A stretch of 64,000 bases of DNA from Halogeometricum rufum. GTDB lineage: Archaea; Halobacteriota; Halobacteria; Halobacteriales; Haloferacaceae. The first letter of the stretch is position 1, and every line of letters begins with the position of its first letter. The notes under the pieces were generated by a model that was given only the letters and a program-made list of their open reading frames with translations, was not told the origin of the DNA and ran no database searches. Where the stretch lies: NCBI RefSeq assembly GCF_900112175.1, contig NZ_FOYT01000002.1, positions 558,001 to 622,000 of the forward strand, in the 5' to 3' direction. Positions 35,125 through 38,690 of this stretch are shown here, piece after piece. A program made the position numbers and the translations under genes.

Positions 35125-36738
35125 ATGAGCGCTGACCGGGCCGCTCTGCACGAGGCCCTCGAGCGCGGCGAAGAGGAAGGCGGAAACATCGAGTTCAAAG
35201 AGCGACTCTCCCGCGCCGTCCACCTGGCGGACGGCCGCCTCGAGAGTCTGGCCGCTCAACTCCGACACCGGGTGCTCTCCGGCGACGGCACGGCGACGTA
35301 CGTCGTCGGCGTCACCGACGACGGCGGCATCGCGGGCATCTCTCCCGACGCGTTCTCCGAGTCCATGGACGTGCTCTCCATCCTCGCAGACGAGGCCGGC
35401 GCGCACATCGAGGACGTGGAGACGTGGGGCGTCGGCGAGTCGCCGTCCCGCGGCCTCGTCGGCGTCGCGACGGTGACAGAGGGCACCGCCCTCGACGCAG
35501 ACGACGACCACATCGTCGTCGGCACGGCGGGTCACGTCGACCACGGCAAGTCCACGCTCGTCGGCTCTCTGGTCACCGGACAGGCCGACAACGGCGAGGG
35601 GAGCACGCGCGGCTTCCTCGACGTGCAACCGCACGAGGTCGAACGCGGCCTCTCGGCGGACCTCTCGTACGCCGTCTACGGCTTCGGCGACGACGGCCCG
35701 GTCCACCTCCGCAACCCCCACCGCAAGTCCGACCGCGCCCGCGTCGTCCAGGAGTCCGACCGCCTCGTCTCCTTCGTCGACACCGTCGGTCACGAACCGT
35801 GGCTCAGAACGACGATTCGCGGCCTCGTCGGCCAGCGACTCGACTACGGCCTCCTCGTCGTCGCGGCGGACGACGGCCCGACGAAGACGACGCGCGAACA
35901 CCTCGGCATCCTCCTGGCGATGGAACTGCCCACCGTCGTCGCCATCACGAAGGTGGACGCCGTGAGCGAGGACCGGGTGCAGGAGGTCGAACGCGAGGTC
36001 GAACGCCTCCTGCGCGACGTCGAACGCACCCCCCTCCGCGTCGAACGCCACGGCGTCGAGGCGGCCGTCGAGGAGATAAGCCCCTCGGTGGTCCCCGTCC
36101 TCCGGACCAGTGCGGTGACGATGGAGGGCCTCGACCAGTTGGACGCGTTCTTCCAGCGCCTGCCGAAGACCACCGCCGACGCCCGCGAGGACTTCCGGAT
36201 GTACATCGACCGGACGTACTCGGTCACCGGCGTCGGCGCCGTCGCCTCCGGAACCGTCAACTCCGGCAGCGTCGAGGCGGGCGACGAACTCCTCGTCGGC
36301 CCGATGGCCGACGGGTCGTTCCGCGAGGTGGAGGTGCGCTCCATCGAGATGCACTACCACCGCGTGGACCGGGCGAAGACGGGCCGCATCGTCGGCATCG
36401 CCCTGAAAGGCGTCAAGGAGTCGGAGATAGAGCGCGGGATGGTGCTGCTCCCCGCCGACGCCGACCCCACGCCCGTGCGGTCGTTCGAGGCGGACGTGAT
36501 GGTGCTGAACCACCCGACCCGCATCCGGGACGGCTACGAACCGGTCGTCCACCTCGAAACCGTGAGCGAGGCGGTGGTCTTCCACCCCGACGGCGGCCAA
36601 CTCCTCCCCGGCGACACGGGGGAGGCGACGGTGGAGTTCAAGTTCCGCCCGTACCTCGTCGAGGAGGGCCAGCGGTTCGTCTTCCGCGAGGGGAGTTCGA
36701 AGGGCGTCGGCACCGTCACGGCGATTCACGAGGACTGA
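35125..36738 (+). CDS. GTPBP1-like translational GTPase (EF-1A superfamily)
   Basis: A 537-residue GTP-binding protein. Residues 1-120 are an N-terminal extension rich in short beta/alpha elements. The G domain has G1 at GHVDHGKS (136-143), G3 in FVDTVGHEPW and G4 as ITKVD (Thr replaces the usual Asn). EF-Tu-like domains II (YIDRTYSVTGVGAVASGTV) and III (HPTRIRDGYEPVVHLETV ... VEFKFRPYLVEEGQRFVFREG) follow. This domain order matches GTPBP1/2-type elongation-factor homologues found in archaea and eukaryotes, whose role in translation or ribosome surveillance is not settled. TATA-like GGGTTTTA centred at 35097 makes the transcript essentially leaderless. Confidence 0.92.
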   Translation: MSADRAALHEALERGEEEGGNIEFKERLSRAVHLADGRLESLAAQLRHRVLSGDGTATYVVGVTDDGGIAGISPDAFSESMDVLSILADEAGAHIEDVETWGVGESPSRGLVGVATVTEGTALDADDDHIVVGTAGHVDHGKSTLVGSLVTGQADNGEGSTRGFLDVQPHEVERGLSADLSYAVYGFGDDGPVHLRNPHRKSDRARVVQESDRLVSFVDTVGHEPWLRTTIRGLVGQRLDYGLLVVAADDGPTKTTREHLGILLAMELPTVVAITKVDAVSEDRVQEVEREVERLLRDVERTPLRVERHGVEAAVEEISPSVVPVLRTSAVTMEGLDQLDAFFQRLPKTTADAREDFRMYIDRTYSVTGVGAVASGTVNSGSVEAGDELLVGPMADGSFREVEVRSIEMHYHRVDRAKTGRIVGIALKGVKESEIERGMVLLPADADPTPVRSFEADVMVLNHPTRIRDGYEPVVHLETVSEAVVFHPDGGQLLPGDTGEATVEFKFRPYLVEEGQRFVFREGSSKGVGTVTAIHED

Positions 36739-36848
36739 CGCGGCGTCGCCGCCGCGGACCGACGCCGAGCCGTCCGCACATCTCGTTCGGTTATCAGAGA
36801 CTGTAATCTGTTCTGAAAGCTTTTGTCGCTCCCGCCGAGAGGCCACCC

Positions 36849-38027
36849 ATGGAACTGAGTGGGTACGCGTTCGGTCGGGTCTGCGACGTCGAACCCGACC
36901 GGACCGACAGGGGAGTCGTCGACGTGCACGTCCCGCAGTCCGACTACGACAGGCGCGACGAGAAGGCCGTCCACGACTACGGCTGGGGGCCGTTCTGCTC
37001 GTTCGGCGTCCCCGACGACGGGACGCACTGCCCCGGCGTCTACGCCATCGCCGTCGAGGACGACGTCGTCTACGTCGGCGAGACGAAGGACCTCTACGAG
37101 CAGTTCGCCAACGGCTACGGCCGCATCTCCCCGGCGAACTGCTTCGCGGGCGGCCAGCAGACCAACTGCCGACTGAACACGGCCATCTTCCACGCCGCCC
37201 GCGCGGGCGACCGTGTGTCGCTGCACCTGCACGCGACGGACGACTTCGGCGGCACCGAAGAGGAGAACCGGGCGCTCCGCCGCATCATCAAAGACGACCT
37301 GGTGACGGCGCTCGACCCCGCCTGGAACAAGGGGAACGGAACCGCCGAGACCGGGGCGTCCGAGGCCGAGACGCCAGCCGAGGGGGCCGAACGCCCGGCG
37401 GCCGAGACGGAGGCGCGAACGACCGAGAGAGAGGCGCGGCCGACCGACGCCGGGTCACCGACGACCGACGCCGACCCGTCGACGCCCCGTCCGTCCGTCG
37501 ACGGGACGGAGTCGGAGTTCGTCCCCGCCGCGCCCGAAGCGGAACGGACGGGGTCGGCCCGGTCGACGACGGAGCGTCCGGAGGCGAGCGAGCGTGCCGA
37601 GACGACCGAGCCCTCGACGCCGCTGGAGCGACCGGAACCGACCGAGTGCGGGACTGCGGACCGCGCTGAACGCTCGGAGCGGCCGGTGGACGCCCCGGCC
37701 GACGACGCCGAGGCCGACGAGTTCGCCGAACTGCGCGCCTACCTCGCGGACCACGAACACGACCGAATCGAGCGGACGTTCGCGGACCTGGAAGTCGTCC
37801 TCGACGGCCACCTCCCGACCGAGGCGCGGCGGTGGCAGCGCTGGTGGACGAACGACGAGTCGTCGCACCCGCACTCGCGAGCGTGGCTTCGAGCGGGATA
37901 CGAGGTGGCCGAGGTGTCGCTGCCCGAGGGCCGCGTCGTCTTCGAGCGTCGCGAACGCGACGGGACGGGTTCGGCGTCGGTCGAACGGCCGCCGGTCGGC
38001 CGCGTCTCACCACGGCGGCGGGAGTAG
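36849..38027 (+). CDS. GIY-YIG-type domain fused to a DUF7662-like domain
   Basis: A 392-residue protein. Residues about 60-155 show a GIY-YIG-like fold (CPGVYAIAVEDDVVYVGETKDL, then GGQQTNCRLNTAIF). The arginine that usually follows YVG by about ten residues is not evident, so nuclease activity is uncertain. A disordered acidic linker of about 130 residues, rich in Glu, Thr, Pro and Arg, is next. The C-terminal domain (about 289-371) reads FAELRAYLADHEHDRIERTF, RRWQRWWTNDESSHPHSRAWL and VAEVSLPEGRVVFERR, the pattern of DUF7662. AGCTTTTG about 30 nt upstream of ATG 36849 may be the TATA box. Its last 21 bases overlap the convergent HAD gene. Confidence 0.8.
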   Translation: MELSGYAFGRVCDVEPDRTDRGVVDVHVPQSDYDRRDEKAVHDYGWGPFCSFGVPDDGTHCPGVYAIAVEDDVVYVGETKDLYEQFANGYGRISPANCFAGGQQTNCRLNTAIFHAARAGDRVSLHLHATDDFGGTEEENRALRRIIKDDLVTALDPAWNKGNGTAETGASEAETPAEGAERPAAETEARTTEREARPTDAGSPTTDADPSTPRPSVDGTESEFVPAAPEAERTGSARSTTERPEASERAETTEPSTPLERPEPTECGTADRAERSERPVDAPADDAEADEFAELRAYLADHEHDRIERTFADLEVVLDGHLPTEARRWQRWWTNDESSHPHSRAWLRAGYEVAEVSLPEGRVVFERRERDGTGSASVERPPVGRVSPRRRE

Positions 38028-38690
38028 TCCCGCCAACCCGTCGAGTCGGTGGTCGGCGCTCGCCGTCGCCGCGTCGGCGTCCGGGGGCGACGCCGGAATC
38101 CACACCGAGCGCAGACCCGCGGCGGCGGCCCCGCGCACGTCGGACTCGACGGAGTTCCCGACGTGGACGGCGCGTTCGGGCGCGGTGTCGAGTCGGTCGA
38201 GCGCGACGCGGAACGGTTCCGGGTCCGGTTTCGGCGCCGTCTCGTGCGCCGCGTACACCACCGTCTCGACGATGTCACCGACGCCGCTGGCGTCGACTTT
38301 CTTCGACTGCGCGTCCTTCGGGCCGTTGGTGACGACGCCGACGCGGTAGCGGTCCGCGAGCGTTCGGAGGACGCGTTCGGCCTCCGGGAGCAGTTCGACG
38401 TTCCGGTGGTCACGCGACGCCGCGAAGGCGTCGGCGACCCGTCGCCCCACGTCGGGGTCGTGACCGCGCGCCTCGCAGATGGCGGCGAAGCAGTTCCGGC
38501 GGAGTTCGGCCATCGGCGTGTCCCAGTCGGCGAACTCGTCGAACCGGTCGTAGTAGGCGTCGACGGGGAACAGCGGTCCCACCCCGCACGCCTCGAACGC
38601 CTCGGACAGCACCGTCGCCGTCGACCGGCGGTACCGGACGAGCGTGTCGTCGAGGTCGAACAGGACGGCTTCGACGGACGAATCTGTCAC
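38007..38690 (-). CDS. HAD-superfamily hydrolase
   Basis: A 227-residue phosphohydrolase. Motif I is LFDLDDTLV (nucleophile Asp and acid/base Asp), motif II is the Thr in VVTNGP, motif III the Lys in APKPDPEPF, and motif IV is VHVGNSVESDVRGA. A helical cap domain lies between motifs I and II (about residues 20-95), as in subfamily I phosphatases such as phosphoglycolate phosphatase-like enzymes. Substrate unknown. The start is GTG at 38690. It is convergent with the GIY-YIG/DUF7662 gene, overlapping it by 21 bases, and divergent from the M48 protease gene. Confidence 0.88.
   Translation of the reverse strand: MTDSSVEAVLFDLDDTLVRYRRSTATVLSEAFEACGVGPLFPVDAYYDRFDEFADWDTPMAELRRNCFAAICEARGHDPDVGRRVADAFAASRDHRNVELLPEAERVLRTLADRYRVGVVTNGPKDAQSKKVDASGVGDIVETVVYAAHETAPKPDPEPFRVALDRLDTAPERAVHVGNSVESDVRGAAAAGLRSVWIPASPPDADAATASADHRLDGLAGLLPPPW

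Follow-up and report, generated by a model that had tools for sequence, protein, structure and literature searches.

The window, a stretch of 64,000 nucleotides from Halogeometricum rufum, carries on its + strand a fusion gene at 36849-38027, which is read as a single open frame from ATG to stop and encodes a protein of 392 amino acids. The preceding gene encodes an EF-Tu-like GTP-binding protein (35125..36738, + strand), present in every family member searched. A likely archaeal core promoter, TGAAAGCTTTTGTC (36814..36827, + strand), consists of a BRE plus a TATA-like element; we infer its function from the sequence and from conservation upstream of seven orthologues. In the upstream comparison, TGAA(A/C)G.TTTT was found approximately 30 bases 5′ of the ATG in all seven chromosomal copies. 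As the promoter-like sequence ends 21 bases 5′ of the fusion-gene ATG, the mRNA is probably leaderless, and the sequence appears to resemble the promoter of a leaderless haloarchaeal gene.

The convergent gene that follows encodes a HAD hydrolase (38007..38690, - strand), and the two genes overlap tail-to-tail by 21 bases (window 38007-38027). The conservation of the C-terminal SPRRRE in the fusion protein probably just reflects that of the LLPPPW end of the HAD protein. The neighbouring genes are of the housekeeping type, and the survey for restriction or antiviral genes that had been suggested from the sequence found none among the neighbours scanned at this locus; thus, the defence-island reading was dropped. 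The window protein matches none of the PADLOC models. Since the frame, the promoter-like sequence and both domains of the protein are conserved, an artefact or pseudogene was ruled out.

The N-terminal domain (aa 1-163; 36849..37337, + strand) is supported by an AF2 model, structure ranking, a profile match and dN/dS, and contains a segment specific to the family, GYG.ISP..CF.GGQ.TNCR.N. Its GIY-YIG Pfam match lies below the Pfam cut-off (E=0.18). PHROG 1111 “endonuclease” matches the window protein at 1.8e-4, and the lone, marginal phmmer match in the PDB is T4 endonuclease II (EndoII; E=0.043). A subfamily profile searched against the PDB recovers EndoII (2wsh) with E=4.5e-7, followed by UvrC. 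The AF2 model, which was built together with three relatives, has a pLDDT of 71 and a pTM of 0.70, residues 81-104 being its weak part. The top twelve Foldseek matches of this model are EndoII, UvrC and Hpy188I, and VIA-align places EndoII at Z 11.0 (123 residues, 3.0 Å), above UvrC (Z 7.5), Hpy188I (5.6) and Eco29kI (4.2). Despite the sub-cut-off Pfam match, the GIY-YIG fold anticipated by the sequence-only reading is therefore supported, as the PHROG match, the subfamily profile and the structural ranking of the model agree, with EndoII as the best structural match. His42, Cys50, Cys98 and Cys107 (codons at 36972, 36996, 37140 and 37167) are invariant in nine aligned fusion proteins; going by this alignment, they might form a metal site.

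The active site is retained in part. Alignment shows that Tyr65 of the GVY motif (37041..37043, + strand), Tyr75 of the YVG motif (37071..37073, +) and the terminal active-site Asn160 within PAWN (37326..37328, +) are kept in the window protein, as they are in all seven chromosomal copies. The position of the catalytic arginine is occupied by Gln85 (37101..37103, +), which in the alignment to 2wsh stands opposite the residue of EndoII that we take to be numbered Arg57. The sequence-only reading had noted that this arginine was not evident, and had overlooked that the catalytic glutamate is missing too. Across the seven chromosomal orthologues, the arginine position reads Q, R, K, K, K, R, Q, so that the residue is lost to Gln or Lys in five and kept in two. 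The glutamate could stand in either of two registers, -15 or -12 relative to the final Asn, and Lys or Arg is found at both in 7/7 orthologues; in the window protein these are Arg145 and Lys148 (codons within 37281..37292, +). Asp150 does not vary within the chromosomal clade and could conceivably act there as a metal ligand. The hallmarks of the superfamily are GIY, YIG, an Arg and a Glu (PMC1564403), and the window protein thus combines a GIY-YIG fold with the loss of two catalytic residues. The domain is predicted to be catalytically degenerate, a reading taken from alignment positions.

A linker rich in Glu, Ser, Thr and Pro (approximately aa 164-290; 37338..37718, + strand), variable in length, separates this domain from the C-terminal one. 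Its presence between the two domains had been predicted, and it is recognizable by its identity of 15-52% and its dN/dS, evolving far faster than either domain. The NCBIfam matches of the window protein are low-complexity noise from this linker. The C-terminal domain (aa 293-365; 37725..37943, +) is DUF7662 (PF24698), as had also been recognized: the Pfam match has E=3.2e-12 and 46.5 bits against a gathering cut-off of 26. At the sequence level, DUF7662 resembles none of the solved structures (E above 1). Its AF2 model (pLDDT 83) follows the order helix, strand, helices, strand, strand, which fits a winged-helix topology. The fold matches of this model are weak singly, with a best Z of 5.5, and many are winged-helix proteins; those listed include RepE, CtsR, RctB, RbkR, CodY and SarA, which we take to be winged-helix domains. 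Because many of the weak matches are of this kind, DUF7662 is called winged-helix-like with moderate confidence. The nucleic-acid binding proposed earlier for the joint protein is likely on the strength of this model. An Anabaena plasmid protein (L020:2170-3669) joins DUF7662 to DUF4268, hinting that DUF7662 may be an exchangeable module.

Among the 99 family genomes sampled, the N-terminal domain was found in 5/5 Halogeometricum, in 2/2 genomes of another genus (g8) and on one Halorubrum plasmid, and every carrier was read as a GIY-YIG/DUF7662 fusion. At the level of the class, DUF7662 occurs in 5 of the 292 genomes sampled, at the loci of these fusion genes. A further fusion lies on a Haloplanus plasmid, so that the survey for the same architecture, also suggested earlier, returned seven chromosomal orthologues besides the Halorubrum and Haloplanus plasmids. 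At the sensitivity of the profile, the genome of the window holds one fusion copy and no second.

The order PyrF, DnaJ, GTPase and fusion gene, followed by M48 and/or MCH, is common to all seven genomes. In several family members that lack the fusion gene, the GTPase directly precedes HAD or MCH, i.e., the site is empty. The shared synteny and the empty sites indicate that the fusion gene behaves as a vertically kept insertion. Within-genus pairwise dN/dS, obtained by a simple counting method, is approximately 0.2-0.5 for the GIY-YIG domain, 0.14-0.35 for DUF7662 and approximately 0.36-1.4 for the linker. Both domains are under purifying selection, and the chromosomal protein is therefore still used. 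The chromosomal copies cluster together in the tree with modest support (83/99); whether genes moved from plasmids to chromosomes or the other way would be judged from parsimony and from this poorly supported tree.

The mobile relatives differ from the chromosomal copies. WP_157746022 (Halorubrum trapanicum plasmid) and WP_157969455 (Haloplanus rubicundus plasmid), both labelled “GIY-YIG nuclease family protein” in RefSeq, share with the window protein the order GIY-YIG then DUF7662 at 33-37% identity. Unlike the chromosomal proteins, they are plasmid-borne, keep the catalytic Arg and Glu, and have neither the insertion before the last helix nor the long linker of the chromosomal clade. In the Haloplanus plasmid (L017:3749-8489), the intact fusion adjoins a phospholipase-D-like protein and an IetA-like ATPase, which could be a defence context. 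WP_134211896 from a plasmid of Paenisporosarcina antarctica belongs to the same GIY-YIG subfamily with its active-site residues intact, but has a C-terminal DUF7669 instead of DUF7662, and thus exchangeable C-terminal modules are suggested. Its surroundings (L018:4971-10417) comprise the GIY-YIG/DUF7669 gene, a small unknown gene, a UvrD-like helicase with GajB similarity and a DUF262 protein, possibly an uncharacterised defence cluster. A phage contig carries a stand-alone version of the GIY-YIG domain. In the four plasmid and phage relatives tabulated, the arginine is kept, and in 4/4 a glutamate precedes the last Asn by 12 residues.

Neither the window protein nor the Haloplanus plasmid protein had a match in the phage collection. 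The DUF7662 pattern retrieved 17 loci from the viral contigs, none with a DUF7662 domain; one distant relative came from another query. A distant archaeal fusion (L027) independently reads GVF and FIE with Lys for both Arg and Glu; active-site decay thus recurs, in parallel to the chromosomal clade. On the methanogen side (family f21 of the phylum), proteins of approximately 450-550 aa (L028-L032, L034, L035) have a degenerate GIY-YIG-like C-terminal domain that keeps G.ISP..C..GG....CRIN without the catalytic motifs; the four scanned among them have no Pfam match, and they may be a further decayed branch.

The explanation that we favour, with slightly better than even confidence, is that the protein is a former GIY-YIG/winged-helix endonuclease, akin to the plasmid forms, that came to be fixed chromosomally and is retained today because it binds DNA, not because it cuts it. 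The ancestor would have been an endonuclease related to the forms on haloarchaeal plasmids, and its gene would have been fixed in the chromosome of an ancestor that Halogeometricum shares with at least one further genus. The catalytic Glu would then have been lost always and the Arg often, with retention of the fold and of the predicted DNA-binding domain. The DUF7662 winged helix would contact DNA, the GIY-YIG fold may add another surface that binds DNA and does not cleave it, and the linker, being flexible, could let both domains bind together. Candidate cellular roles are regulation, the masking of sites, and recognition of a DNA structure or mark. A binder is the simplest role because the nuclease fold is under selection but the cutting residues are not kept. 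The nuclease effector or defence function first considered is weakened for the window copy by the basic residue at the Glu position in 7/7 orthologues, the varying Arg and the housekeeping locus. It fits the plasmid relatives better, as their active site is kept and one of them lies near UvrD-helicase and DUF262 genes.

Several observations run against a non-cutting protein: Tyr65, Tyr75 and Asn160 are invariant, Asp150 is conserved throughout the chromosomal clade, and two of the seven orthologues retain the Arg. These would suit the main rival, a still active endonuclease with an altered metal site, perhaps modification-dependent (type IV-like): its winged helix would recognize a mark on the DNA, and its GIY-YIG domain would cleave close by. 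An active form has a precedent in winged-helix/GIY-YIG fusions that cleave DNA close to methylated GATC (PMC11037411). This rival is rather improbable, given that the glutamate that helps to define the superfamily (PMC1564403) is basic in 7/7 copies in either register, that no defence genes are among the neighbours scanned, and that presence within the genus is fixed and not patchy. Active-looking fusions do circulate on plasmids of the same family, and a catalytically dead homologue might, in principle, give protection from them as a non-cutting competitor, by shielding the same sites or by poisoning the enzyme through mixed oligomers. The absence of a second copy from the same genome and the identity of only approximately 33-37% to the plasmid forms, which makes a shared site doubtful, leave such a competitor quite unlikely. 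The conserved position beside the EF-Tu-like GTPase could point to a function with RNA or with this neighbour instead of DNA; the GTPase occurs throughout the family without the fusion gene, the latter has its own conserved promoter-like sequence, and the relatives of the protein are nucleases, all of which makes this the least probable of the explanations considered.

A broader and more tentative proposal, which we would put below even chances, is that haloarchaeal chromosomes, and independently those of another archaeal group, have domesticated a GIY-YIG pseudonuclease lineage, in which a dead nuclease fold and a DUF7662 winged helix together serve as a reader of DNA or a chromosomal regulator. 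The RefSeq label of the plasmid relatives is already known. In the literature searched, DUF7662 and DUF7669 are unmentioned, and no account of a haloarchaeal clade of decayed GIY-YIG proteins was found. If the proposal holds, a restriction-type nuclease of the mobile pool has become a DNA-binding protein fixed in the chromosome, DUF7662 gains a suggested fold and role, and this domain would serve plasmid nucleases as an interchangeable module for reading DNA. For the chromosomal copies, the database label “GIY-YIG nuclease” may be wrong. As active-looking plasmid copies and decayed chromosomal copies exist in one family, the idea is directly testable.

Two known systems invite comparison. The wH-GIY-YIG type IV enzymes Ahi29725I and Apa233I have been shown biochemically to cut in a methyladenine-dependent manner near methylated GATC (PMC11037411). 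Like the window protein, whose winged helix is predicted, they fuse a GIY-YIG domain to a winged-helix domain, the likeness to DUF7662 being one of predicted domain class. They differ in that the winged helix comes first in the described architecture (PMC11037411), and the intact catalytic site of N6-methyladenine-dependent enzymes of this type is not found in the window protein. The closer counterpart of the N-terminal domain is phage T4 EndoII (PDB 2wsh, solved as the E118A mutant), its best match in both sequence and structure over nearly the full domain length. Both catalytic residues, Arg and Glu, are present in EndoII, which has neither a DUF7662 domain nor a linker, whereas the window protein carries Gln and Lys/Arg at these catalytic positions.
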